The notes beneath the pieces were generated by a model. The model saw nothing but the letters and a program-made list of their open reading frames with translations. It did no database searches and had not been told where the DNA came from. A program made the translations under genes and the position numbers. A stretch of DNA of 64,000 nt, taken from contig NZ_BCSG01000020.1 in assembly GCF_001570745.1 (NCBI RefSeq), positions 32,665 to 96,664 of the forward strand, given 5' to 3'. The DNA comes from Alicyclobacillus mali NBRC 102425. GTDB taxonomy: Bacteria; Bacillota; Bacilli; Alicyclobacillales; Alicyclobacillaceae. This document shows, in pieces, positions 8,665 to 21,331 of the stretch (its first letter is position 1; each line of letters opens with the position of its first letter).

Positions 8665-9801
8665 TCACCGATCGCGCCCAAACCTGCCGTTCTGCCGGCG
8701 CATGAACGCCGGAATCTCCCACGGGTTTCCGGTGTTCGGCACGTTGACCACAGGATCCTGGGCCGAAGGATGGCGCTGGACAGTGCCTCGCACCACGTTC
8801 TCGTGCGCCTCGTGGTGGATCTGGTTCGGCCGTGGCTGCTGTTGATTGGAACCGTCGAATCCTGTCGCAATCACGGTCACGACGATCTCGTCTTCCAGAT
8901 TCGGATCAATGGCCGCACCGAAAATCATGTTGACATCTGGATCTGCCGTCATGGAAACGATATCCGCGGCCTCGTTGACTTCCCACAGGCTGAGATTTGT
9001 CCCACCGGCGACGTGCATCAAGATACCCCGGGCGCCATCGATGGACGTCTCCAAAAGCGGCGACGAGATGGCTTTCTTCGCAGCCTCCGCGGCCCGGTTT
9101 TCGCCAGACGCGATGCCGATGCCCATCAGAGCCGAGCCGCGCTCCGTCATAATGGCCTTCACGTCCGCAAAGTCCACGTTGATAAGCGCTGGCGTCGCGA
9201 TGAGGTCCGAAATGCCCGACACACCCTGCCGCAGGACGTTGTCCGCCTCCCGGAACGCCTCGAGCACAGGCGTGTTGCGGTCCACAATCTCAAGCAGGCG
9301 GTCATTCGGGATCACGATGAGCGTGTCAACCTTCTGCTTCAACTCGTTGACACCTTGTTCCGCCTGAATCATACGTCGGCGCTGCTCAAATCGGAATGGC
9401 TTCGTGACGACGCCCACCGTGAGCGCACCTAGTTCCTTCGCAATCTCAGCGATGACCGGCGCTGCTCCCGTCCCGGTGCCGCCGCCCATCCCCGCCGTGA
9501 CAAATACCATGTCCGCGCCCTTGAGCGCGTTGGCCAACATTTCGCGGCTCTCTTCCGCCGCCTTCTTGCCAATTTCGGGATTCGCCCCCGCGCCCAAGCC
9601 GCGGGTCAGCTTTTCGCCAATCTGGAGCTTCGTCTCGGCCTTCGACAGCTTGAGCGCCTGGGCATCCGTGTTCACCACGATGAACTCCACGCCCTTGACG
9701 CCTGATTCGATCATCCGGTTCACCGCATTGCACCCGCCGCCGCCGACGCCGATCACCTTAATATTGGCAAGGGAATCAGTTTCAAAATCGAATTCAAGCA
9801 C
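8665..9801 (-). CDS. ftsZ: cell-division GTPase FtsZ
   Basis: Tubulin-like GTPase forming the Z ring. [18 protein letters not shown], the T4 loop GGGTGTG, and [11 protein letters not shown] are present; the variable tail ends in the conserved peptide [19 protein letters not shown] used to bind FtsA and other tethers. A GTG start at 9801 is set by AGGAGG seven bases upstream and gives 378 residues; the open frame to 9879 adds 26 unconserved residues. Last gene of the dcw cluster, 88 bp after ftsA. Confidence 0.97.
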
Positions 9802-9857
9802 TGTGGGTCCTCCTAATCTATTTGGCTCCGCACTTCCCCTGCGACAGTATGGTGTCA

Positions 9858-9879
9858 GCGCGCACGCGCGCGCACACAC
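9858..9879. repeat. 22-bp alternating purine-pyrimidine tract
   Basis: Between ftsA and ftsZ the sequence alternates purine and pyrimidine without a break for 22 bases, mostly GC and CA steps. Such tracts can adopt Z-DNA under negative supercoiling. No function is shown. Confidence 0.45.
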
Positions 9880-9888
9880 CGGCCGACA

Positions 9889-11124
9889 TCACACGAAATC
9901 GCGCAGCCAATCTTTGATTCGTGCAAATACGCCGACGTGATTGGACGAACGAACCTGACGAGCGCCAGCGTTGTAATCCGCCGAGCTCGGCCGAAGCCCC
10001 GTGCGAGCGGCATACACAATCATGCCGACGCCGTTGACGAACGACGGATCACGCACTCCGAGAAATTCTGGAACGGCGATGCGCACAGGCGCCTGCAGTT
10101 CTTCCCCCGCCAACTCGGCCGCGGAAGGCGTCGACATGACGCCGCCGTGAAACACGTATCCCGCGGGCAACTCGTCGGCGTAACCCATCTTTTCTACTTC
10201 TTTTCGCACGAGGCCGAATATCTCCTGCATTCGAGGCTCGATGATCGTGGCGAGATCATACTGCGTGAACTCGGCCTCTTTGTTGCTTCCCATTCGAGGC
10301 ACCCGGAACGTCTCGTGCTCGGACGCCTGCTCCACCATCGCGCAGGCGTGGCGAAGTTTTACCTGCTCGGCTGCAACGGTGTTGGTACGCAGGCCGATGG
10401 CGATGTCCTGCGTCACGTAGTCGCCGCCGATGGGGATGATGCTCGTGCCCATCAGCACGCCGTTCGCAAACACGCTGACCGACGTCACGCCCGCACCCAC
10501 GTCCACGAGCGCGACGCCCAGTTTTCGCTCGTCCTGGGTCAGTGCAATCTGGCTCGCCGCCATCGGCGCAAGCACGAGGTTCGCGACTTCCAGCCCCGCG
10601 CGCTCTACACAGCGAACGATGTTATGAATGGCGGTGCGGCTCCCAGTGATGAGGTACGCATCCACCTCCAGTCGCACCCCGAGCATGCCCCGCGGATCCA
10701 TGATGCCGCGCAGGCCGTCGACGACAAATTCCTTGGCAACCACGTCAATGACCTCGCGTTCCGGAGGCAGCGCCACGACTCGCGCTTGCTGCAAAACGCG
10801 TTCAATATCTTCATCCGTGATTTCGCGATCCGCCGAAGATACGGCGACCACCCCATGAGAGCTGTGCAACTGAATGTGCTCTCCAGAAATACCCACGTAC
10901 GCGGATGGGATGCGAATGCCCACCATGCGCTCGGCGTGATCGACCGCTTCCCGGATTGAATCAACCGTTTTGTCAATATCGACAATCGCACCGTGGCGCA
11001 GTCCTTGACTCGAGGCGGAGCCCACTCCAATGATGTTCAAGTTGTTTCCTGTCGACTCTCCGATGATGACTCGCACCTTCGAAGTGCCGATGTCGAGACT
11101 GACGATGTAGTCCTCCTTGGCCAA
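9889..11124 (-). CDS. ftsA: cell-division actin-like protein FtsA
   Basis: Actin-fold ATPase that tethers FtsZ to the membrane. YIVSLDIGTSKVRVIIGE is the phosphate-1 motif, the SHS2 region follows (RHGAIVDIDKTVDSI to GIRIPSAYVGISG), and VALVDVGAGVTSVSVF is phosphate 2. The C-terminal NHVGVFARIKDWLRDFV is the amphipathic membrane-targeting helix. TTG start with GGGAGG about ten bases upstream. 411 residues, slightly short of B. subtilis FtsA. It lies between sbp and ftsZ. Confidence 0.96.
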   Translation of the reverse strand: MAKEDYIVSLDIGTSKVRVIIGESTGNNLNIIGVGSASSQGLRHGAIVDIDKTVDSIREAVDHAERMVGIRIPSAYVGISGEHIQLHSSHGVVAVSSADREITDEDIERVLQQARVVALPPEREVIDVVAKEFVVDGLRGIMDPRGMLGVRLEVDAYLITGSRTAIHNIVRCVERAGLEVANLVLAPMAASQIALTQDERKLGVALVDVGAGVTSVSVFANGVLMGTSIIPIGGDYVTQDIAIGLRTNTVAAEQVKLRHACAMVEQASEHETFRVPRMGSNKEAEFTQYDLATIIEPRMQEIFGLVRKEVEKMGYADELPAGYVFHGGVMSTPSAAELAGEELQAPVRIAVPEFLGVRDPSFVNGVGMIVYAARTGLRPSSADYNAGARQVRSSNHVGVFARIKDWLRDFV

Positions 11125-11239
11125 CCGAGTGGCACCTCCCTAGAGCGCCCGAGACTGCGATTCTCTATCTACTTCCACACGCATTTCGACAATCCTCTAA
11201 CGCAAGCGAAAAATCTTTGATTTCCAGCCGCCGTTTGAC

Positions 11240-11617
11240 TCAGTCCTTGGTGGAGGCCACGCGTCGTGCCACTCGTCGCTGCCGGATGAGCGTGAACACG
11301 TGCCGCCGGATGACGGCGATGTTCTGGAACAGACGGACGCCAAAGGCCACGACCGCCGCCAGATACAGATCCACACCGAGCTGATTCCCGATGTAGGCCA
11401 ACAGCGCGGCGACCAACGTGTTCGTGAAAAAGCCGGACAGAAACACAGCGCTGTCGAACGTCTTGTCCAAGCTTGCCCGGATGCCCCCCACCACAGTGTC
11501 CAACGCCGCGAGAATGGCGATGGACAGATAGCTCGTGAACGCGACAGGGATGACGACGTTGGTCACCAGGCCAAGGCCGACGCCAACGGCCAGGCCCAAA
11601 ATCGGCAGCCAATACAT
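11240..11617 (-). CDS. sbp: small basic protein Sbp (DUF1290)
   Basis: A 125-residue protein with three hydrophobic segments, conserved ILAALDTVVGGIRA, and a basic tail (RRHVFTLIRQRRVARRV). This is the DUF1290 small basic protein always found upstream of ftsA in Bacilli; its function is unknown. The start overlaps the preceding DUF881 stop (TGATG), indicating translational coupling. Confidence 0.92.
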   Translation of the reverse strand: MYWLPILGLAVGVGLGLVTNVVIPVAFTSYLSIAILAALDTVVGGIRASLDKTFDSAVFLSGFFTNTLVAALLAYIGNQLGVDLYLAAVVAFGVRLFQNIAVIRRHVFTLIRQRRVARRVASTKD

Positions 11618-12366
11618 CAGCCGTTTCCCTCCTTCGCGTATTGCCCAGGCAACGATCCCGCGTACGCAGGAACCGTCACGCCGCGCGGCGACGGCAGCGC
11701 GCGAATGATAAAGTCCTCGCCCATCGCCTCAAAATATCCTTGTAAGACGTTCACGGACAGCCCAGTTTCCATCTGTTGCACGTTGCCGACAGCCTGGATG
11801 ACATACGGCTCCTCGACAGGTCTGCCGTTCACGTGCACGCTGCCGATTCCGTTCACCTCGACGAGCCGAATGGAGGACGTGCCAACCAAGCGCTGGCCAT
11901 TGATAGCAATGGCCGTGGCCCCATTGGCAAACAGGACATTGACCACCTCGTCCAACCACTGATCCGCCTGTTGAGGAAAGAGCGCCATCTGCGCCGGACT
12001 CGCGCCGAGCTTCGCGTCCGGCTGGATGGTGATGGTGATCCCAGGGCCGGTGACGGACGTGAGGCCAGCTTCAGATGCGAGCTGGCGCTCATCTCGCGCC
12101 AACACTTGTCTGAGCTCCTTCTGGCTGCCACTCGCGGCCCTGTACTCGGCGAGTTGAGCTTCAAGTTTCGAAATCTGCTGCTCGAGCAGAATGTGCTCCT
12201 GCGCCTGTTCGGAGACCTGAGTCCTTAGGTCGATGTAGCTGGTGTTACCCGACCCGACAGGCGCCTCGGCCGTCAAATCCACTGTCACCATGAAACCAAG
12301 CGCAGCCACGGTGGCCGTCGCCACCCAGATGAGACTTCGGTTGGAGCGAGCCGGCATCCGTGTCAC
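11617..12366 (-). CDS. DUF881 protein (YlxW/YlxX type), second copy
   Basis: A 249-residue DUF881 protein: short cytoplasmic N-terminus, one transmembrane helix (about 12-30), a coiled coil (residues 45-95, EQISKLEAQLAEYR) and a C-terminal domain with GPGITITIQ, VVNVLFANGATAIAINGQRL and VIQAVGN. It overlaps the previous DUF881 gene by 4 bp (GTGA). Such tandem DUF881 genes lie between divIB and sbp in Bacilli. The role is unknown; the topology suggests a septum-associated bitopic protein. Confidence 0.85.
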   Translation of the reverse strand: MTRMPARSNRSLIWVATATVAALGFMVTVDLTAEAPVGSGNTSYIDLRTQVSEQAQEHILLEQQISKLEAQLAEYRAASGSQKELRQVLARDERQLASEAGLTSVTGPGITITIQPDAKLGASPAQMALFPQQADQWLDEVVNVLFANGATAIAINGQRLVGTSSIRLVEVNGIGSVHVNGRPVEEPYVIQAVGNVQQMETGLSVNVLQGYFEAMGEDFIIRALPSPRGVTVPAYAGSLPGQYAKEGNG

Positions 12367-13067
12367 CCCTGCAGCGAATTGGTATAGGCGGGAATGTGGA
12401 TATCGTTCTCCACCTCTGGCGTTGACACCTGCAGCCCCTCCTGCCGCATCGCATCGAGGATCCCGCCCTGAATCTCAAGCGCAGAGGAGAGGACGGCGGG
12501 ATCGCCAATGGCAGTCACCGTGAACGGTGCGCCAAGGCGATGGCCGTTCACAGAGACGACGGGGCCTTGGCACTCGATGGACGACGTGGCAAGCACGCGG
12601 TAATCGTTGATGGCCACGGCCTCCGCACCGGCGGTGAAGAGCTCGTTGACCAGGTTGCGAAGCGTCCAATCGTGAGCGAGGATTTGCTCGACGTCATTCC
12701 CGCCCGCACTGCCGTCGTTCAGCGTGACTTGGACGCCCGGTCCGTGCACTGGCGTGAGCCCTGCCAGAATGCGTTCACCGGTCATCCGCTGCTGCAGGAC
12801 CTGAACCGAACTCGTCGATCCCGCCGAAATCTGCTCATACTGCGCGATCTCCTGCGTCAAGGAGGCCAGTTGCTGCTGCGCCTCCTGGTTCGACTGCTTC
12901 AGCTCGCTGAGTCGCTCCCCCAACTGGCGATTGACGGCCGAATTGCCGTTCACGAGCACACCCAAGGAGGCCGCGGCATGGTTCTGCCGATAACTCACCG
13001 TCAGCATGTAGCCGAGGGCCACCGCGACCACCGTGAGCGATGCAATGACGCGTCCTTGCGCGTTCAC
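12363..13067 (-). CDS. DUF881 protein (YlxX/YlxW type), first copy
   Basis: A 234-residue paralogue of the following gene with the same plan: membrane helix near 8-25, coiled coil around 45-90 (LGERLSELKQSNQEAQQQLA), and a C-terminal domain with GPGVQVTLNDG, LVNELFTAGAEAVAINDYRV and FTVTAIGDP. It starts 14 bp after divIB and overlaps the second DUF881 gene by 4 bp, so divIB-DUF881-DUF881-sbp is one translational chain. Confidence 0.85.
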   Translation of the reverse strand: MNAQGRVIASLTVVAVALGYMLTVSYRQNHAAASLGVLVNGNSAVNRQLGERLSELKQSNQEAQQQLASLTQEIAQYEQISAGSTSSVQVLQQRMTGERILAGLTPVHGPGVQVTLNDGSAGGNDVEQILAHDWTLRNLVNELFTAGAEAVAINDYRVLATSSIECQGPVVSVNGHRLGAPFTVTAIGDPAVLSSALEIQGGILDAMRQEGLQVSTPEVENDIHIPAYTNSLQG

Positions 13068-13081
13068 AACGTCCCTCCTCC

Positions 13082-13912
13082 TCAGGGATGCGATACGGCT
13101 GTAGAGCTTGTCCCGCCATTCAATGCGCCTTGACTGGAGGCGCCCGATGCCTTGGCAGTGGCGCCCGGCAGCGATGAGAACGGAGTGTAGCGGTAGGGAG
13201 GCGGCCCGGTCAGGTCAATGAGGCCGGGGCGGTATCCCTTTGCCACGAAATAGTCAACCGCCGGTCCAATGGCCGCCATCGCGCCTCGCAGGTCCGCGAC
13301 GTCCGCAAGCACTTCAAAGTCGTTGTCCAGATACAGGGTGACCGTGCCGTCTCCGTTCACTTGGATTTCGGATACGTGGTTCACTTCGCTCGCAGGCACT
13401 TGAGCGAGTTGATGACAGACGGACGACACGGCAGCCGAGGCCATCTGATGCACATAAAGTACCGGCTCCTGTCCGGTCAAAATGGGATACGAAAGCCCGG
13501 CGGCAGACGCGATCTTCTGGTACACGTAGCCGTTTGACATGAGTTCGTAGAATCCGTTTCGAGCTGCGTACACCGCGACGACGTCTCGCTCATGCACCTG
13601 AATCGACACGGTTCCCGAAGGCCACGACACGTCGATGGCAGCCCGGTCCACCATGGGCACCTTCGCGACGACCGCCATCGCGGCGCGCCTCCGGTTCACG
13701 GCCCACAGGCTCTCGCCGTAGGCCACGCCGCTTGCAGCCACAATTTGAGCCATCGGGACGGTCGTATTGCCACTCACGCGAATGTGGCGCACGCGGGCGA
13801 GTGGCGACTCCAGCACCGCCACAAGCCCGATGAACGCGAAGAAGCTCACGACAATCCTGCGATTTCTCGCCTTTCGGCGCGCGCGCTCGTCTGCTGTTTC
13901 CTGTCGTGGCAT
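13082..13912 (-). CDS. divIB: cell-division protein DivIB/FtsQ
   Basis: A bitopic division protein: basic cytoplasmic N-terminus, transmembrane helix near residues 20-38, then the POTRA domain (VRHIRVSGNTTVPMAQIVAA) and a beta domain with SWPSGTVSIQVHERDVVAVY and GDGTVTLYLDNDFEVLAD. It forms the division complex with FtsL and DivIC. ATG 13912 has GAAAGG eight bases upstream; the frame extends to 13951 without conserved sequence. It starts 36 bp past the murA stop. Confidence 0.9.
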   Translation of the reverse strand: MPRQETADERARRKARNRRIVVSFFAFIGLVAVLESPLARVRHIRVSGNTTVPMAQIVAASGVAYGESLWAVNRRRAAMAVVAKVPMVDRAAIDVSWPSGTVSIQVHERDVVAVYAARNGFYELMSNGYVYQKIASAAGLSYPILTGQEPVLYVHQMASAAVSSVCHQLAQVPASEVNHVSEIQVNGDGTVTLYLDNDFEVLADVADLRGAMAAIGPAVDYFVAKGYRPGLIDLTGPPPYRYTPFSSLPGATAKASGASSQGALNGGTSSTAVSHP

Positions 13913-13947
13913 GCTGTCACGCCTTTCGCCGCCTGTGCGCCCCCTCT

Positions 13948-14937
13948 TCACTCGCCGCTCTGCACGCGCAAGGCGCGCGCACCGAGCGTGCGCAGCAAAG
14001 CCGTCATGTCTTCATACCCGCGGTCGATGTGCTGGAGTCCTTCGACCTCCGTGACGCCATGGGCCGCGAGACCGGCCACGACGAGCGCCGCGCCCCCGCG
14101 AAGATCCGCCGCAGCGACGCGCGCGCCGGACAGTCGCGGAACACCCCGCACAATGGCCGTGCGAAGATCGACCGAGACGTTTGCACCCATGCGCACCAGC
14201 TCATCCACGTGCTTGAAGCGGGCTTCGAACACACTTTCCTGCACGATGCTCGTGCCTCTGGCTATGGTCAAAAACGCCATGAACGGCGCCTGAAGGTCCG
14301 TCGGAAACCCTGGGTAAGGCGCAGTGCGGATATCAACGGAAGATGGGGTCTCCTCACAGATAACAGTGATTATATCATGCTCCACCTCGGCGCGAACACC
14401 CGCATCGCGCAGTTTCTGTAAAACCACGCCCAGATGATCCGCCCGTGCCCCCACGAGCTTCACCTCTCCGCCTGCCGCTGCGGCCATGGCCATCACGGTA
14501 CCTGCCACGATGCGGTCTGGAATAACCGCATAGGTGGTCTCGGAGAGCTGGGATCTCCCGTGCACCTCAATGCGCGCCGATCCGGCCCCGCGGATCTGCG
14601 CGCCCGCCGTGTTCAGGAAGTTTGCCAAGTCTTCCACTTCAGGCTCGCGCGCCGCGTTTTCGATAATGGTGATTCCGTCCGCCAAAACCGCCGCCATGAG
14701 CAGGTTCTCAGTCGCGCCCACCGATGGAAAATCCAACACGATGTGCGTACCGACGAGACGCTTTGCCTGGCAACGGATGAGCCCGTGGGATTCCTCAATC
14801 CGCGCTCCCAGCGCCCTGAGCCCGCGCAGATGAAAGTCAATCGGCCGCTGGCCGATGACGCACCCTCCCGGCTTCGAGACGGTCACCTCACCGCACCGCG
14901 CCATCAGGGGCCCCATCAAGAAGATGGAAGACCCCAT
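13948..14937 (-). CDS. murA: murA 3' segment (UDP-GlcNAc 1-carboxyvinyltransferase, interrupted)
   Basis: This frame encodes MurA from SSIFLMGPLMARCG to the C-terminus. It includes PGGCVIGQRPIDFHL with the catalytic, fosfomycin-targeted Cys, FPSVGATENLLMAA, EPEVEDLANFLN, IPDRIVAGT, PYPGFPTDLQ and DLRGGAALVVAGL. The first 92 residues of a normal MurA are missing here and are encoded at 17770-18084, across an inserted element. The ATG at 14937 is inside the recombination site and lacks a ribosome site, so this segment is unlikely to be functional alone. Joining the two segments at the TC dinucleotide gives a 419-residue enzyme in frame. Confidence 0.93.
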   Translation of the reverse strand: MGSSIFLMGPLMARCGEVTVSKPGGCVIGQRPIDFHLRGLRALGARIEESHGLIRCQAKRLVGTHIVLDFPSVGATENLLMAAVLADGITIIENAAREPEVEDLANFLNTAGAQIRGAGSARIEVHGRSQLSETTYAVIPDRIVAGTVMAMAAAAGGEVKLVGARADHLGVVLQKLRDAGVRAEVEHDIITVICEETPSSVDIRTAPYPGFPTDLQAPFMAFLTIARGTSIVQESVFEARFKHVDELVRMGANVSVDLRTAIVRGVPRLSGARVAAADLRGGAALVVAGLAAHGVTEVEGLQHIDRGYEDMTALLRTLGARALRVQSGE

Positions 14938-14950
14938 GCTCCGCGATAGA
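14916..14950. other. element attachment junction, murA 3' side
   Basis: The crossover dinucleotide is TC on the minus strand (14931-14930). Upstream of it lies element sequence ending GCATGGGG; downstream lies murA sequence TTCCATCTTCTTG. It shares only a short core with the other junction (ATG, GGTC and CCAT in register), as expected of serine-recombinase hybrid sites. Confidence 0.8.
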
Positions 14951-14961
14951 TGATCTCGACA

Positions 14962-16419
14962 TCACTCGAGCCTCAGGACGAGATCGACATCCACCTCGCG
15001 CGAGCGCTTCGGGCGAAACACCCGCACCTCTCGGACGACGGCCAGGAACAAGGCGCGCTCCAACTGTGGATCGCCAGCAAGATGGGCGCAGAGATCGTGC
15101 ACCCACTTCTCCCAGCCCTCGCTAGTGGCAAGGCCCGTCATCTCGGCCTCCGCCGCGCGACACTCCTCCAACACGCGCAACAGCCGATCCTGCTCGCGCG
15201 TATACGCCTCCTCGGACACCACGCTCGACGCGTAGGCCTCGGCGATCCGCCTCAATCTCGCCAGGGCAATGCGGCGCTTGCGCTGAATCATGCGCAGCTC
15301 GTTCGACGCTGCGTTCGACTGATAGGCCGCTACCAACGGCTCGAGTTGGGACCGAACGCGGCGGAGAAGTTCCTCCACCACCAGCCGTTCGAGCTCTTCG
15401 GCGTCCACCTGGTTTGGCGTACAGCCACCACCTGTGACATACCGACCGCAGCGGTAAATCGGCCGCTTTTGGCGATGGTCGCCGCGTGTGGTCACCTGCC
15501 AGCCAGCGTACAAGGCGCTCTCGCAGAATCCACAACGCGCAATGCCGGCGAGCGGGCGCTTCGAGCCTTGCGATCGCGGCGCCAACGCGCTGCGGCGCTC
15601 AAGCATGGCCTGCAGGGTTTCGAATTCCTGGCGGCTCAAGATGGCCTCGTGCGTTCCCTCGACACGAACCCACTCGGCCGGATCCCGCTCTGTTCGCCGA
15701 CGCCCCTGGGTCTTTCGACGATTCCACACGGACACGCCGGCCAACGCGGGATTGGAAAACAGCGTGCGAACCGTGCGGTCGGTCCAAAGCCGTCCCGTCT
15801 TCGTCCGCACGCCGAGTGCGTTGAATTCCATCGCGACGTCCCTCGGGCTCGCGCCGGTCAGCAAAAGGCGCGCTCCTTCGCGCACCCAGCGCGCCTCCCG
15901 CGGATCCGGGGTCAAACGGCCATTCGACAACCGATAGCCAAAGGGGGGCTTGGTGGCCAACTCACCCCGCTGCGCCATCGCCAACAGGTTTTCGTGTACG
16001 CGCTCCGCGATGATCTCTCGCTCGAACTCCGCAATGACGGATAGCATCTGCGCCACCAGTCGCCCCATGGCTGTGGAGATCTCGAAATTCTGCCTGGTGG
16101 AACGATAAAACACGCCGTGCACGTTCATCTCTTCCACCAGCCGCGCGAAATCGGCGACACTGCGGGTCAGACGGTCAATGCGCGTGGTCACAACCCCGAC
16201 CACGAGCCCGTCGCGGATGTCGGCCCGGAGGCGGTCCATCGCCGGGCGATTCAACGACTTACCTGAGTATCCGTCATCGCAATAGAGTTGGTAGCAAGGA
16301 AAGCCTTGAACCCGCGCGTACGTCACGAGCTGCTCCTGTTGTTCCTTCAGGCTGTGCCCCGATGTCGCCTGCTCTTCGGTGGAAACGCGGATATACAGCG
16401 CCAGATGTCGCTCCTTCAC
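14962..16419 (-). CDS. large serine recombinase of the murA element
   Basis: A 485-residue serine recombinase. The catalytic domain spans about 1-150, with S13 in YIRVSTEEQ, DDGYSGKSLNRPAMDRL and VVTTRIDRLTRSVADF, then the alpha-E helix region (QMLSVIAEFEREIIAERV). The recombinase domain follows (PPFGYRLSNGRLTPDP, NPALAGVSVW), then a zinc ribbon (RCGFCESALYAG, YRCGRYVTGGGC) and a coiled coil. Size and plan match SpoIVCA-type recombinases. GTG start overlaps the stop of the small upstream ORF by 4 bp. It ends 29 bp from the murA junction, the usual place for an integrase beside its own att site. Regulation is not evident. Confidence 0.92.
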   Translation of the reverse strand: MKERHLALYIRVSTEEQATSGHSLKEQQEQLVTYARVQGFPCYQLYCDDGYSGKSLNRPAMDRLRADIRDGLVVGVVTTRIDRLTRSVADFARLVEEMNVHGVFYRSTRQNFEISTAMGRLVAQMLSVIAEFEREIIAERVHENLLAMAQRGELATKPPFGYRLSNGRLTPDPREARWVREGARLLLTGASPRDVAMEFNALGVRTKTGRLWTDRTVRTLFSNPALAGVSVWNRRKTQGRRRTERDPAEWVRVEGTHEAILSRQEFETLQAMLERRSALAPRSQGSKRPLAGIARCGFCESALYAGWQVTTRGDHRQKRPIYRCGRYVTGGGCTPNQVDAEELERLVVEELLRRVRSQLEPLVAAYQSNAASNELRMIQRKRRIALARLRRIAEAYASSVVSEEAYTREQDRLLRVLEECRAAEAEMTGLATSEGWEKWVHDLCAHLAGDPQLERALFLAVVREVRVFRPKRSREVDVDLVLRLE

Positions 16420-16574
16420 GGCTCATTCACCCGCCGGCCGCGGTGCGCAAGCATGCGCTCCACAAGGGGACGGGCGACAGCCATCACGCGGTTCGCCACC
16501 TCCGCTTCGGCATCCCGCACAGGAGCCAGTTCCTCACGCCGGGCGTCCCAGACGTAGACGGCACGAATTCGCAT
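16416..16574 (-). CDS. small ORF coupled to the recombinase
   Basis: A 52-codon ORF starting MRIRAVYVWDARREELAPV and ending RRVNEP. The ATG at 16574 has GGAGGGG with six-base spacing (another ATG at 16580 is too close), and its stop overlaps the recombinase GTG start (GTGA). Rich in Arg, Ala, Glu and Val; one amphipathic helix is likely at residues 20-42. No family is recognised. Position suggests a control or accessory protein of the recombinase, such as a directionality factor, but this is only inference. Confidence 0.55.
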   Translation of the reverse strand: MRIRAVYVWDARREELAPVRDAEAEVANRVMAVARPLVERMLAHRGRRVNEP

Positions 16575-16580
16575 GTTCAT

Positions 16581-16611
16581 CCCCTCCCGTCAGACCGATA
16601 TGCGGGAGGGG
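16581..16611 (-). promoter_or_regulatory. hairpin covering the ribosome site of the recombinase leader ORF
   Basis: A perfect 9-bp inverted repeat (CCCCTCCCG / CGGGAGGGG, 13-base loop) lies between ypdA and the small ORF. Its 3' arm is the Shine-Dalgarno of the small ORF, so when folded it would hide the ribosome site and limit recombinase synthesis. There is no T-run after it, so it is not a normal terminator. Confidence 0.5.
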
Positions 16612-16633
16612 ATGGCCATCTTGCCGGACGAAC

Positions 16634-17626
16634 TCAGCTCACACGCGCGCCCGCCCTGGACGCAATGGCGTCCGCAATACAAGGCGCCTGCAGTCGGCCG
16701 TTTTCGATGAAAATGCGGTTGGCATCAAAGCCGGACACCACGACGCCGGCCACGTAAATGCCGGGCACGTTGGTCTCATACGTCGCCTCATCATGTACCG
16801 GAATGCCCGTCTCCGGCGCAATCTGGACGCCGAGCTTTTCGAGAAACGAAGTATCCGGGTGATAACCGGTCAGCGCCAGGACGTGGTCGCACGGCACGTC
16901 CAGCGGACCGCCAGGTGTCTCGACGCGGACGTGATCCGCGCAGATGGCCGCCACGCGCGAGCGAAAGTGACAGTCGATCGCCTGCTTGTCGATAAGGCTC
17001 TGGATGTCGGGCTTCACCCACGGCTTGATTTTGTCAGACATGGCGGCTCCTCGGTGGACCAGGGTGACCTGCGCGCCGATGCGATGGAGGTCGATGGCGG
17101 CCTCAGCCGCTGAATTGGTACCGCCGATGATGACCACGCGCTGGCCGTAATACGGATGCGCATCGCGGTAATAGTGACTCACGTGAGGCAGATCTTCGCC
17201 CGGCACGCCGAGCATGTTGGGCTGATCGAAATACCCCGTAGCCACCACGACGGACGAGGCCATCGTTTCAAGCGTCCGCCCAGACAGCGTGCGCGAGTGG
17301 ATGCGAAATCCCTGCAGCTCGCGATCTCGCTCGACCGAGATCACTTCCTCGTACTGCCGAACCGGCAACTGAAGCCGCTCAACCACGGTCCGGTAGTACG
17401 TCATCGCCTCCATTCGCGTGGGTTTGGCCCGCTCTGTGTAAAACGGGATTTCACCCAACTCCAGGCGTTCAGGGGTCGAATTGAACACCATCTGCGTCGG
17501 AAAACGGTAAATTGTAGAAACAATGCAGGATTTTTCGATCACGACGTGGGGAATGCTGCGCCGCTTCAGCTCGACCGATACGGCCAAGCCGCATGGACCG
17601 GCGCCAATGATACACGCTTCGAACAT
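16634..17626 (-). CDS. ypdA: YpdA family bacillithiol-disulfide reductase (Bdr)
   Basis: A 330-residue thioredoxin-reductase-like flavoprotein without a CXXC pair. The FAD site is IIGAGPCGLAVSVELKR, the NADPH site VVIIGGTNSAAEAAIDLHR, and TGYHPDTSFL and AGVVVSGFDANRIFIENGR are characteristic of YpdA/Bdr. The enzyme uses NADPH to reduce bacillithiol disulfide. It is the cargo gene of the murA element. The same chromosome region carries bshC, so the substrate is probably made by this cell. A perfect TATAAT lies about 50 bases upstream. Confidence 0.87.
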   Translation of the reverse strand: MFEACIIGAGPCGLAVSVELKRRSIPHVVIEKSCIVSTIYRFPTQMVFNSTPERLELGEIPFYTERAKPTRMEAMTYYRTVVERLQLPVRQYEEVISVERDRELQGFRIHSRTLSGRTLETMASSVVVATGYFDQPNMLGVPGEDLPHVSHYYRDAHPYYGQRVVIIGGTNSAAEAAIDLHRIGAQVTLVHRGAAMSDKIKPWVKPDIQSLIDKQAIDCHFRSRVAAICADHVRVETPGGPLDVPCDHVLALTGYHPDTSFLEKLGVQIAPETGIPVHDEATYETNVPGIYVAGVVVSGFDANRIFIENGRLQAPCIADAIASRAGARVS

Positions 17627-17676
17627 GGCCCTCGCTCCTAGCGAAAATCTCCGTCTGTGAATCTCTGGACTTCGTC

Positions 17677-17682
17677 ATTATA
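17677..17682 (-). promoter_or_regulatory. -10 box upstream of ypdA
   Basis: TATAAT on the minus strand 51 bases before ypdA, inside the element. The region 17 bases upstream (CCGAGA) is a poor -35, so an activator or another sigma factor could be involved. It may drive ypdA, the small ORF and the recombinase together. Confidence 0.4.
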
Positions 17683-17769
17683 CCACGGAGCGACGGACCT
17701 CTCGGCGTCCAGCGGGGATGGATCGGCATGGGACTGGGGAACAAGCGAGGTCATGCGAAGAGGGTGTCG

Positions 17770-18084
17770 TCAGGATCCAGTCATGAGCAATTCGCGCATC
17801 ATGGGGGACCTCATCTTCTGCATGAGATGAGACGGAACTTGCGTTGAAGTAAGCGACGTGGCATCGACCTTCACGGTACCAGAGGACATCGAGACCGTCG
17901 CGCCAAGACTCCTGAGGATGTCCAGCATGACACGGACATCCTCGAGATCCGGGACGTTTTGGATGACCGAGCGCCCCGCAACCATGACGGTGGCCGCGAG
18001 AATGGGAAGGGCCGCGTTCTTTGCGCCCGCCACCCTGACCTCACCCGTCAGCGGAACGCCGCCCTCAATTCGCAGCAATTCCAT
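17770..18084 (-). CDS. murA: murA 5' segment (interrupted)
   Basis: Encodes residues 1-92 of MurA: MELLRIEGGVPLTGEVRVAG with the conserved AGAKNAALPILAA (substrate-binding Lys-Asn), NVPDLEDVRVMLDILRSLG and LMQKMR. After AGG (Arg92) the frame enters the inserted element and ends 12 codons later (last residues MMRELLMTGS). ATG 18084 is chosen because AGGAGG lies eight bases upstream. It overlaps the murB end by 20 bp. The segment lacks the catalytic Cys and most of the fold and cannot be active alone. Confidence 0.93.
   Translation of the reverse strand: MELLRIEGGVPLTGEVRVAGAKNAALPILAATVMVAGRSVIQNVPDLEDVRVMLDILRSLGATVSMSSGTVKVDATSLTSTQVPSHLMQKMRSPMMRELLMTGS
17790..17825. other. element attachment junction, murA 5' side
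   Basis: Crossover TC on the minus strand at 17808-17807. Upstream is murA sequence CAGAAGATGAGG; downstream is element sequence CCCCATGATGCGCGA. Together with the other junction it allows attB and attP to be rebuilt, both symmetric about the TC. Confidence 0.8.
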
Positions 18085-19015
18085 CGTCCGCACCTCCTAG
18101 CAAGGGTTCGCCAAGCACCCGGACTTCGGTTTCAAGGTCAATGCCAAATCGGGCTCGAACCTCCGCCTGTGCGCGCCGAATCAGCCAGAGGACATCGCTC
18201 GCGGATGCGTTCCCCAGGTTGATGATAAAGTTGGCGTGTTTGTCGCTGATCATCGCCTGCCCGCGGCGCAATCCCTTGAGCCCTGCCTCCTCAATGAGCT
18301 TGGCCGCATGCGTGCCGTCGGGGTTGCGAAACACGGAGCCGCAGTTTGGAAAGCTGAGCGGCTGCGTCGCAATGCGGCGCTGAGACCACTCGCGCACGAC
18401 GCGCCGCATCTCGTCGCGATCGCCCGGCTTCATCTGAAACTTGGCCCAGGTGACGATCCCGAAGCGATCCTTGAGGATGCTGTAGCGGTAACCAAAGCGC
18501 AGATCGCCATTGCTGAGCCGCACCACAGCGCCGGTCTCGTCCATCACTTCGGCCCACGCGAGCACCTCGCGCGTCTCACGGCCGTACGCGCCGGCGTTCA
18601 TCATGACCGCTCCGCCGACCGAACCGGGGATGCCCGTGGCAAACTCCAGGCCTGAGAGACCATGGCGGATGGCCACGTTCGCGAGCGCGACGTACGAGCG
18701 ACCCGCCATTGCGTAGACGGCACATTCGTCCTCTTTGACCTCGTACGACGCGAACGCGTCGTGTAGCTTGATGACGAGCCCGCGAATGCCCCCGTCCAGC
18801 ACCAGTGCGTTGGATCCACGGCCAATCACGGTAATGGGTAGACCATAAGCCCTCGCAGCGCGGACGCTCACACGAAGGGCGTCGACCGAATCCGGTTCGA
18901 CAAAGTAGTCGGCTGGCCCGCCGATGCGCCACGTGGTGTGCCGCTTCATCGGCTCGCCGCAGATCGCCCTCACGCCTTCATCCGCAAGGACTCTCACAAA
19001 CGGATCGTCATGCAT
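18065..19015 (-). CDS. murB: UDP-N-acetylenolpyruvoylglucosamine reductase MurB
   Basis: FAD enzyme reducing the MurA product to UDP-MurNAc. The FAD-binding VIGRGSNALVLDGGIRGLVI, GLEFATGIPGSVGGAVMMNAG, FGYRYSILKD and the type II signature NCGSVFRNPDG with the later LIEEAGLKGLRRG are clear. ATG 19015 has GGAGG seven bases upstream; the frame to 19039 is an extension. It directly precedes murA, so the two UDP-MurNAc steps are adjacent in this operon. Its last codons overlap the murA start. Confidence 0.96.
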   Translation of the reverse strand: MHDDPFVRVLADEGVRAICGEPMKRHTTWRIGGPADYFVEPDSVDALRVSVRAARAYGLPITVIGRGSNALVLDGGIRGLVIKLHDAFASYEVKEDECAVYAMAGRSYVALANVAIRHGLSGLEFATGIPGSVGGAVMMNAGAYGRETREVLAWAEVMDETGAVVRLSNGDLRFGYRYSILKDRFGIVTWAKFQMKPGDRDEMRRVVREWSQRRIATQPLSFPNCGSVFRNPDGTHAAKLIEEAGLKGLRRGQAMISDKHANFIINLGNASASDVLWLIRRAQAEVRARFGIDLETEVRVLGEPLLGGADDGIAAN

Positions 19016-19100
19016 GTCAGGTCCTCCATAAGATTCCACTGGGTCACCTACCTCACCGCCGCAACCGCATCATATGCCGGGCTGGGCGAAGGGTGAGTGC

Positions 19101-20207
19101 CTACGTGCGGCGCCTGCCCGCCACTTCAAGGACGAGATCGCCGAATCGTCTCACGGCGTCGGGGCGGCCAAAGCTCCGCGCCCGGGCTTGGATGTCGGCA
19201 AGATCTCCCTCGAGCATGTCACAGATTTCCTTCCAGAGGACATCTGGGGTCAGGTCGGCTTCCCGGAGGACGCGCGCAGCGCCGGCCCTGGCGAGCTGCA
19301 TCGCGTTTTCCTCCTGATGATTCGCTGTCACGTACGGGCTTGGAACAAGGATGGACGCCACGCCGAGCGCACAGATCTCCGCGAGCGTGCTCGATCCGGC
19401 CCGGCTCACCATCAGGTCGACATGCGGAAGAAGCGCAGGCATGTCCGCAATAAAGGGATGGAGCGTCACGTTCCGAGGGAGCGGCCCCACTTGGTTTTGA
19501 ATGTCCTCGAAGTGTCGCTCGCCAGTCACGAACAGAACGCGCCAGTCGGGGCGGTCCGCAAAGCGCGAGAGCATCTCTGCCACCACCCGATTGGCGGTCT
19601 CCGAGCCTCGGCTCCCAAAGACAATGAGAATCACGCGCTGTCCACGCAGAATTCGATAATTGTCGAGTGCCCGCCGCTTGTCCGCCGCGGAGACTTCTAC
19701 CACCTCGCTCCCGCGCGGATTACCTGTGAAAACGACCCGTTTCGCTCGTGCGAAGGACGCCTCGCTCTCCGGAAAACAGACAGCCACGGCGTCCACGCGA
19801 CGCATCAGGAGCTGGTTGGTCAGCCCAGGCCTCGCGTTGCCTTCCCAGATCACGGACGGAACGCCGAGCTTGGTGGCGGCGTAGATCACGGGAAGCGCCA
19901 CAAAGCCGCCGGTGCCGACCGCGACATCGGGTCGGAAGTCGCGGACGACTCGGAGCGCCTCCCGATACCCGCGGTACGTGGTGGCAAGGGTGCGCACGGC
20001 GTTCAGCGACAGCTCTCGACGAAGGCCGGCCGCATGGACGGACACAAACGGAACGCCTGCTTCCGGCACCAGCCGACTTTCAAGCCCTTGCTCGGTACCT
20101 ACGTACAGAACCGCCGCGTCCCCCACACGCGCCTTCAAGTGACGCCAAAGCGAAAGGGCGGGGAAGATGTGGCCGCCCGTGCCCCCACCCGTCAGCAACA
20201 CCTTCAT
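19101..20207 (-). CDS. murG: lipid II synthase MurG
   Basis: GT-B glycosyltransferase adding GlcNAc to lipid I on the inner membrane face. The N-terminal LLTGGGTGGHIFPALSLW, VGTGGFVALPVIYAA and the C-domain HPFIADMPALLPHVDLMVSRAG, STLAEICALG and PYVTANHQEENA are the standard motifs. 368 residues, normal length. Its ATG overlaps the ftsW stop (ATGA), so the flippase/polymerase partner and MurG are coupled. Confidence 0.97.
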   Translation of the reverse strand: MKVLLTGGGTGGHIFPALSLWRHLKARVGDAAVLYVGTEQGLESRLVPEAGVPFVSVHAAGLRRELSLNAVRTLATTYRGYREALRVVRDFRPDVAVGTGGFVALPVIYAATKLGVPSVIWEGNARPGLTNQLLMRRVDAVAVCFPESEASFARAKRVVFTGNPRGSEVVEVSAADKRRALDNYRILRGQRVILIVFGSRGSETANRVVAEMLSRFADRPDWRVLFVTGERHFEDIQNQVGPLPRNVTLHPFIADMPALLPHVDLMVSRAGSSTLAEICALGVASILVPSPYVTANHQEENAMQLARAGAARVLREADLTPDVLWKEICDMLEGDLADIQARARSFGRPDAVRRFGDLVLEVAGRRRT

Positions 20208-21331
20208 TCTACCATCCCCGCCTGCTTCGAAATGTTGAGGAGAATCCCGACGCCGCTCAGCAACAACGTCAACGACGATCCGCCGTAGCTGATAAACGGC
20301 AACGTGATGCCCGTCGCCGGGATGGATCCAGTCACCACACCGATGTTGATCAGAACCTGCACGGCAATCATTCCCGTGATGCCTGTCGCCAAAAGCGTTC
20401 CGAAATCGTCCGGCGCGTACAGCGCCGTGCGGATTCCTCGCCAGATGAGCACGGCAAACAACAGGAGCACCGAGACGGTCCCGAGCAGGCCCAGTTCCTC
20501 GCCGACGATGGAAAAGATGAAGTCGGTCTGAGGTTCCGGCAGATAAAGAAATTTTTGTCTGCTATGTCCGAGGCCGAGCCCCAGGATGCCACCGGACCCG
20601 AGCGCGTAAAGGGACTGGATGATCTGATATCCCTTCCCAAGCGGGTACTTCCACGGATCCAAAAAGGCGTAAATGCGATCCATGCGGTAGGGCGCCATCG
20701 CGACGAGGCCCGCGAAGCCGACGGCGCCCGCGCCGAAGAGGGAGGCCAAATGCGACCAGCGCGTGCCCGCGACAAACAGCATGATGAGCGTGGTCCCCAT
20801 GATCACGACGCTCTGGCCGAGATCGGGCTCCAGCATGATGAGCCCCACTGCAACCAGGGCCAGTCCCATCGGTGGGACGAATCCGCGCCAGAAGGAGTGC
20901 ATCCGGTCCTTCGACTCCGCGAGCAAATGAGCGAGAAACATGACGAGCCCCAGTTTTGCGAACTCGGACGGCTGAATGCCGAGCGAGCCGATGCCGAGCC
21001 ACGCCTTCGATCCTCCGCGGTTCACGCCTACCACAAGCACGAGGACCAGAAGCGCATAGCTCGCAAGCGCAATCTTCGGTGCATGCTTGCGCCACACGTG
21101 GTAGTCGATACGTGAGAGCCAGATCATCAAACCGACGCCCATTAGAGCCCAGATGAGCTGCCGCTTGGAGAAATAGAAGGCGTCCTGGAATCGCGTCGCG
21201 GAGATGACCGACGAAGCGCTGTGCACCATGGTCACGCCAAACGCGAGCAGGAGCAAGATGACGCCAATCAGCGTAACATCGGGCGACGAGCCCGGCGCCC
21301 GGTTCGAAGACGCCGACATAGACCGAAACAC
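20204..21331 (-). CDS. ftsW: SEDS glycosyltransferase FtsW/SpoVE
   Basis: Ten-helix SEDS peptidoglycan polymerase. Signatures include SSVISATRFQDAFYFSKRQ, GIQPSEFAKLGLVMFLAHLL, LEPDLGQSVVIMGT, YALGSGGILGLGLGHSRQKF and PLPFISYGG-like LPFISYGGSSL near the end. In B. subtilis the gene at this place is spoVE, needed for spore cortex; here it could serve division, sporulation or both. 375 residues. It works with a class B PBP such as the two encoded upstream. Confidence 0.93.
   Translation of the reverse strand: MFRSMSASSNRAPGSSPDVTLIGVILLLLAFGVTMVHSASSVISATRFQDAFYFSKRQLIWALMGVGLMIWLSRIDYHVWRKHAPKIALASYALLVLVLVVGVNRGGSKAWLGIGSLGIQPSEFAKLGLVMFLAHLLAESKDRMHSFWRGFVPPMGLALVAVGLIMLEPDLGQSVVIMGTTLIMLFVAGTRWSHLASLFGAGAVGFAGLVAMAPYRMDRIYAFLDPWKYPLGKGYQIIQSLYALGSGGILGLGLGHSRQKFLYLPEPQTDFIFSIVGEELGLLGTVSVLLLFAVLIWRGIRTALYAPDDFGTLLATGITGMIAVQVLINIGVVTGSIPATGITLPFISYGGSSLTLLLSGVGILLNISKQAGMVE

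Follow-up and report, generated by a model that had tools for sequence, protein, structure and literature searches.

How does a spore-forming bacterium come to carry a gene for a peptidoglycan-precursor enzyme that is cut in two by a recombinase-encoding element, and can the gene be put together again? This question is raised by a 64,000-nucleotide stretch of Alicyclobacillus mali NBRC 102425 (contig NZ_BCSG01000020.1, positions 32,665 to 96,664; the whole stretch is called the window), which belongs to a draft genome of 2.79 Mb in 85 contigs. On the minus strand, the gene order in the division and cell wall (dcw) cluster is spoVE, murG, murB, a murA 5' piece, ypdA, an open reading frame (ORF) for 54 amino acids, a gene for a large serine recombinase, a murA 3' piece, divIB and ftsA. 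Of these, murA, murB, ypdA and the recombinase gene were named from family scans, and spoVE, murG, divIB and ftsA by eye. The element interrupts murA at its position between spoVE-murG-murB and divIB, and its genes have the same orientation as the cluster. Pfam and NCBIfam assigned both pieces to MurA and the frame at 14962-16419 to serine recombinase. The initial annotation had proposed that the pieces at 17770-18084 and 13948-14931 join at a common TC dinucleotide to give 419 codons, and this was confirmed to the base: the joined frame is free of stops and reads SHLMQKMRSSIFLMGPLMARCGEVTV, and the stretch between the two TC copies measures 2,877 bp (Table 1). The ORF of the N-terminal piece runs past the joint into an unrelated tail down to 17770, and that of the C-terminal piece spans 13948-14937. 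The allotment of substrate and catalytic residues also holds, with K22 and N23 encoded by the N piece and C115, D305 and R397 by the C piece (numbering presumably that of Escherichia coli MurA).

Table 1. Features of the interrupted murA locus (window coordinates; attL and attR, left and right attachment sites)
Feature	Position	Strand	Basis or remark
murA 5' piece, residues 1-92 to crossover TC	17808..18084	-	family scans, joined-frame check
murA 3' piece, crossover TC to stop	13948..14931	-	family scans, joined-frame check
attL: murA half-site + TC (17808-17807) + element half-site	17785..17831	-	outer limits approximate
attR: element half-site + TC (14931-14930) + murA half-site	14908..14955	-	outer limits approximate
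Large serine recombinase, 485 aa (Resolvase + Recombinase + zinc ribbon)	14962..16419	-	family scans, alignment, profile search
Small ORF, 54 aa, stop overlaps recombinase start; candidate recombination directionality factor	16416..16580	-	conservation
ypdA, YpdA-family putative bacillithiol disulfide reductase	16634..17626	-	TIGR04018, 441.7 bits (cut-off 339.9)
TGGTATAAT, extended -10 like promoter motif before ypdA	17677..17685	-	seen by eye
Promoter-like block CGGCAAG-N16-GCATA	16599..16626	-	same spacing in 9/10 elements
Hairpin CCCCTCCC / GGGAGGGG; 3' arm has the small gene's likely ribosome-binding site, -10-like GCATA in loop	16581..16611	-	

A search with PF00275 of 41 genomes, 15 of them of the genus, showed that in ten genomes the dcw murA is broken at the identical place and that its two halves share a contig or scaffold. 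Nine are members of the genus (G000, G002, G003, G005, G006, G010, G011, G012 and G014), and the tenth is A. tolerans (G021), which GTDB places in another genus. The species concerned include A. fructus, A. sacchari, A. tengchongensis, A. hesperidum, A. tolerans, A. acidiphilus, A. acidocaldarius and A. vulcanalis. The joint is base-exact and in frame in all ten loci; the C-piece matches of G002 and G021 that were flagged with one stop start before the joint is reached, and both frames are stop-free once joined. In an eleventh genome, that of A. sendaiensis (G009), the murA halves lie on two contigs, each of which stops within a few bases of the joint. The uninterrupted form exists as well: the dcw murA of G001, G004, G007, G008 and G013, five species of the genus, is intact and contains MRSSIFLMGPL. 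The recombinase (E 1e-70) was found in ten of 41 genomes of the family, which are the same ten that have the split gene; in nine of them it is confined to the murA site, and A. tolerans has one more distant copy (35%). In a tree of SpoVE, MurG, MurB and MurA, the nine split members of the genus form one clade together with A. sendaiensis (node value 93), beside the uninterrupted clade, and the order of the recombinase tree is that of the host tree (node values 68-100). A. tolerans falls outside the split clade, and its insertion may for this reason be older or independent.

Both halves of murA are under purifying selection. The joined frame is open with KMRSSIFLMGPL in all ten split loci, and K22, N23, C115, D305 and R397 are retained in each of the ten joined proteins. 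Ratios of nonsynonymous to synonymous substitution (dN/dS) are ~0.04-0.13, alike for N and C pieces, in nine of nine pairs from the eight split genomes other than A. acidiphilus and A. tolerans, as compared to 0.025-0.17 for intact murA in three pairs with usable dS (a fourth intact pair is saturated). The tails of the N pieces inside the element differ between groups. In all ten loci an ATG stands at the joint in the C piece, and no Shine-Dalgarno sequence of at least four bases lies 3-12 nt before it. Given the open frames, the kept residues, the low dN/dS, the non-conserved tails and the absence of a Shine-Dalgarno sequence, selection appears to act on the joined protein. Together with the presence of the element throughout a clade, selection on both halves suggests that the rearrangement has a function.

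Traces of excision are present in two relatives. In A. sacchari, two identical ypdA-recombinase copies lie in tandem (0 differences in 2,662), and at the joint between them, ATAGCATGGGTTC followed by CCCTATCTTGCC, the element's right end runs exactly into its left end, which makes this joint the attachment site attP. Reads of a circle, or of a re-integrated circle, would give such a joint. The A. sendaiensis recombinase is assigned to a contig of 2,857 bp, and the elements of its group measure 2,843-2,877 bp; this element-sized contig, along with murA halves ending at the joint, is the pattern expected if both forms were present in the DNA. The initial annotation had described a precisely excisable serine-recombinase element, and this claim is supported by the precise joint and the traces in the two relatives. 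Precise excision in relatives is well supported. The attP core reads CATGGGG-TC-CCCCATG in five elements (G000, G002, G010, G011 and G014); over 28 positions in ten elements, the arms show 10-19 symmetrical matches for attP and 9-13 for attB, the restored murA site, so that symmetry is clear at the core and weak overall. Sequences resembling attP in A. acidiphilus and A. tolerans were rejected because their flanks differ, and a third MurA-like copy in A. acidiphilus was rejected as a restored murA, being a paralogue at 39%.

From its domains and motif, the element is predicted to encode its own site-specific recombinase. The protein has the catalytic serine along with Resolvase, Recombinase and zinc-ribbon domains, as in large serine recombinases/integrases, and its frame is open with the motif YxRVST in nine of nine aligned sequences. 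Its profile matches a PDB chain named YokA (E 1e-27), which we take to be SprA, and the closest named recombinase, at 99% identity, comes from A. mali. A protein of 51-54 amino acids is encoded directly before the recombinase in nine of ten elements, the tenth (A. tolerans) having an 89-amino-acid ORF there. Size and place suggest that this small protein is a directionality factor; its predicted fold is a beta hairpin followed by a long helix (local confidence score pLDDT 84.5, template-modelling score pTM 0.50). The third gene, ypdA, is the sole copy found in the window genome, and the motif before it (Table 1) resembles what we take to be the extended -10 consensus. Among the 15 genomes of the genus, the nine with a split murA have ypdA solely within the element (in A. 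sacchari two copies, owing to the tandem), G007 and G013 have it at different loci, and no ypdA was found in G001, G004, G008 and G009. Phage structural or replication genes were not seen in the 2.9-kb element, in which three ORFs only, ypdA, the small ORF and the recombinase gene, are conserved or have a family assignment; as a compact element lacking phage genes, it was rejected as a prophage. The GC content of the element (0.627) is close to that of the window (0.608), which fits long residence.

Upstream of the small ORF, nine of the ten elements share the block CGGMAAG-N16-GCATA at constant spacing. In eight of the nine block-bearing elements, the likely ribosome-binding site is covered by a hairpin that pairs at 6-8 of 8 positions and has GCATA in its loop. 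The arms vary by group yet still pair (CCCCTCCC/GGGAGGGG, CCCTTACC/GGTAAGGG and CCTCTGCC/GGTAGGGG), and 12 of 2,000 shuffles of the window stretch reached 8 of 8 pairs. For comparison, we aligned upstream regions of sporulation genes of the genus, leaving out rows that did not align (one for spoIVA, four for dpaA and most for spoIID). In B. subtilis, spoIVA and spoIIID are sigma-E genes and dpaA is a sigma-K gene. In the genus, the spoIVA and spoIIID regions have GCATAC-N14-CATATA or close variants, and the dpaA region has CACC, a spacer and CATAAGCTA or close variants. The block was rejected as a sigma-E or sigma-K promoter: it has the -10 CATA in common with spoIVA, spoIIID and dpaA, and its -35 matches none of them. 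The comparison neither proves nor excludes mother-cell control. A wider CGGMAAG-N16-GCATA regulon was also rejected: of 20 matches, ten fall within the elements, the A. sacchari tandem contributing two of them, and the other ten revealed no convincing promoter.

The interruption is tolerated because the genome encodes a second, complete MurA (TIGR01072, 549.6 bits). Its gene is located between atpD and genes scored as SpoIID (143.3 bits, below cut-off, the SpoIID/LytB domain being above its own), a SpoIIQ-like protein (148.9, below cut-off) and SpoIIID (147.7, above cut-off), presumably the place of murAA in B. subtilis.

On this basis we consider it probable, if by no means assured, that the murA element is a compact, domesticated gene-intervening element, excised most likely in the mother cell, where this would restore a second working MurA for spore peptidoglycan. 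The dcw murA, interrupted at a fixed TC by the 2.9-kb element, would be rebuilt once the element leaves the chromosome in circular form in a cell whose genome is not passed on, most probably the mother cell during sporulation. The recombinase would make the cut, with the conserved small upstream protein as its putative directionality factor. Production of these two proteins may be limited in time by the promoter-like block and the hairpin: in transcripts that extend from ypdA the hairpin would close over the ribosome-binding site, whereas RNA initiated directly after GCATA would lack the 5' arm. Since the element holds the only ypdA found and is kept across the clade, excision would be expected chiefly in cells without progeny; this is reasoning and no result, namely that loss of the element from the germ line would cost ypdA. 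A more specific proposal is that in this clade a three-gene element, locked in by the sole ypdA, silences a second MurA in the germ line, and that programmed excision rebuilds the enzyme in the mother cell only; we give it a little under an even chance.

Several observations weigh against excision in the mother cell and a restored murA. The restored gene (attB) was found in none of the 11 assemblies, with a search pattern that does not fit A. acidiphilus. Likewise, among 92 database proteins no full-length one exceeded 78.2% identity to a joined MurA from any of the ten loci, while the C pieces reached 93-99.7%. The missing attB lowers the claim of a restored gene without excluding it, because assemblies tend to report the majority form. 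The attP joint was present in one of the 11 assemblies only, that of A. sacchari, and not in the window genome; moreover, attR there coincides with a gap of 96 N in the scaffold, and a tandem array is indistinguishable from an assembler path through a circle. The symmetry of the attP arms barely exceeds that of attB. No homologue of the small protein was detected among known directionality factors; it has no Pfam family and no PDB match by profile or fold, SprB included, and its two PHROG matches reach only E 0.25-0.29. The hairpin is lacking in A. acidiphilus, and the folding z-score, -3.8 in the window, is weak in six other elements (-2.1 to 0.0). The -35 of the block is unlike both the sigma-E-type (spoIVA, spoIIID) and the sigma-K-type (dpaA) patterns. 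Finally, to our knowledge MurA has not been described as a sporulation-specific enzyme.

Some of these points would also suit a vegetative switch or stress response, in which the element excises outside the mother cell and the restored murA raises the MurA supply in a subpopulation. The attP joint and the element-sized contig come from assemblies of unstated growth stage, and the -35 of the block differs from those of the sigma-E- and sigma-K-type promoters compared. However, a circle that bears the sole ypdA found and no evident replication gene would disappear as cells divide, and the ten genomes of the split clade are all still split, nine of them on one contig or scaffold and A. sendaiensis across contigs, with no restored murA seen. 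We therefore regard such a switch as unlikely. More doubtful still is a tolerated mobile insertion, which the initial annotation had named as the main alternative and according to which murA is dispensable and excision occasional and functionless. The second MurA that it calls for is real and adjoins spoIID and spoIIID, and phages and plasmids commonly carry distant relatives of the serine recombinase. However, purifying selection on both halves and the kept catalytic residues are not what a dead insertion would give: the halves are about as constrained as intact murA, the joint is in frame in every locus, and the recombinase is almost confined to the murA site, A. tolerans with its distant extra copy being the exception.

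A two-chain MurA, whose pieces are translated separately and assemble without recombination, might draw on the ATG at the joint of every C piece and on the conservation of both halves. The lack of a Shine-Dalgarno sequence before this ATG and the non-conserved N-piece tails argue against it, as does the attP joint, which indicates recombination in A. sacchari, leaving this explanation with only a slight chance. Chance or an assembly error is a very unlikely cause of the split, and an assembly error or strain-specific accident, which the draft state of the window genome might suggest, hardly needs to be entertained, because the same base-exact break recurs in ten of 41 genomes, including G002 and G010 with the split gene on chromosome-length contigs of 3.0 and 3.1 Mb.

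Excision of the murA element in the mother cell would have counterparts among described gene-intervening elements of spore formers, which, as far as the accessible parts of the cited papers go, interrupt the sporulation genes sigK, spsM, spoVFB, spoVR, gerE and yabG and are mostly prophage-like. The skin elements in sigK of B. subtilis and C. difficile are alike in that a serine-recombinase element in a gene of a spore former is removed with precise in-frame restoration. Excision in C. difficile uses a directionality factor of 72 amino acids, according to the available sections (PMC5025042), and skinCd comprises 19 genes and the B. subtilis skin 48 kb (PMC5025042, PMC13141910). In contrast, the murA element has three genes in 2.9 kb, no phage genes were seen in it, and its target is a peptidoglycan-precursor enzyme. 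SPbeta in spsM employs a serine recombinase and a 58-amino-acid factor, SprB, expressed from a promoter with a perfect -10 and an imperfect -35, as the accessible text describes it (PMC4191935). The murA element likewise combines a serine recombinase with a small protein, and its block is -10-like with no matching -35, which is a resemblance and no proof. SPbeta, however, is an active prophage, and the small protein of the murA element matches SprB neither in sequence nor in fold. The gin element in gerE of B. cereus is a gene-intervening element of non-phage type, its recombinase being GirC and its factor GirX (PMC5595907, in part). It differs in its size of 28.6 kb, its three recombinases and its location in a sporulation regulator gene, whereas the murA element is compact and present across a clade of species. 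Within the same genus, the prophage MMB025, integrated in sigK of A. acidoterrestris, is another insertion, one that splits a sporulation gene (PMC13141910). Unlike the murA element, it is an infectious phage in another gene, and the available part of that paper leaves excision during sporulation to future tests.

Among the literature matches listed, no murA element was described by title or abstract start, which is no proof of absence since subscription papers were mostly not covered. The target here would be an enzyme of peptidoglycan synthesis, and the element is very small, with one recombinase, one candidate factor and one cargo gene. If true, programmed excision would bring developmental genome rearrangement into core wall metabolism. 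Two questions become testable: for what reason these spore formers retain a second MurA, and whether precursors for the spore cortex are supplied through programmed removal of DNA.

The elements at murA are not all of the compact form. That of A. acidiphilus (L036, 4314-11346) measures 7,040 bp and has the reversed gene order, with the recombinase before ypdA; its ORFs include GGDEF (547 aa), EAL (176 aa) and chemoreceptor MCP/HAMP (446 aa) domains. The A. tolerans element (L044, 4209-13384) comprises 9,204 bp, encodes a P-type cation ATPase of 1,530 aa with a heavy-metal-associated domain, and had no ypdA match. In a genome of another family (G035; L045, 1-255), the murA 5' piece enters unrelated DNA about nine bases beyond the TC joint, followed by the contig end, perhaps reflecting another element at the same gene. 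A recombinase with 40% identity is present on a contig of a Brevibacillus metagenome-assembled genome (L122, 5388-6998), with no murA on the contig. Among the best 80 IMG/VR loci with distant recombinase relatives (at most 37% identical) and contigs L122 and L123, no other query gene, murA and ypdA included, was detected. Within the window (8665-21331), divIB, ftsA and ftsZ follow downstream of the element in the dcw cluster, so that cell-division transcripts may need to cross it.

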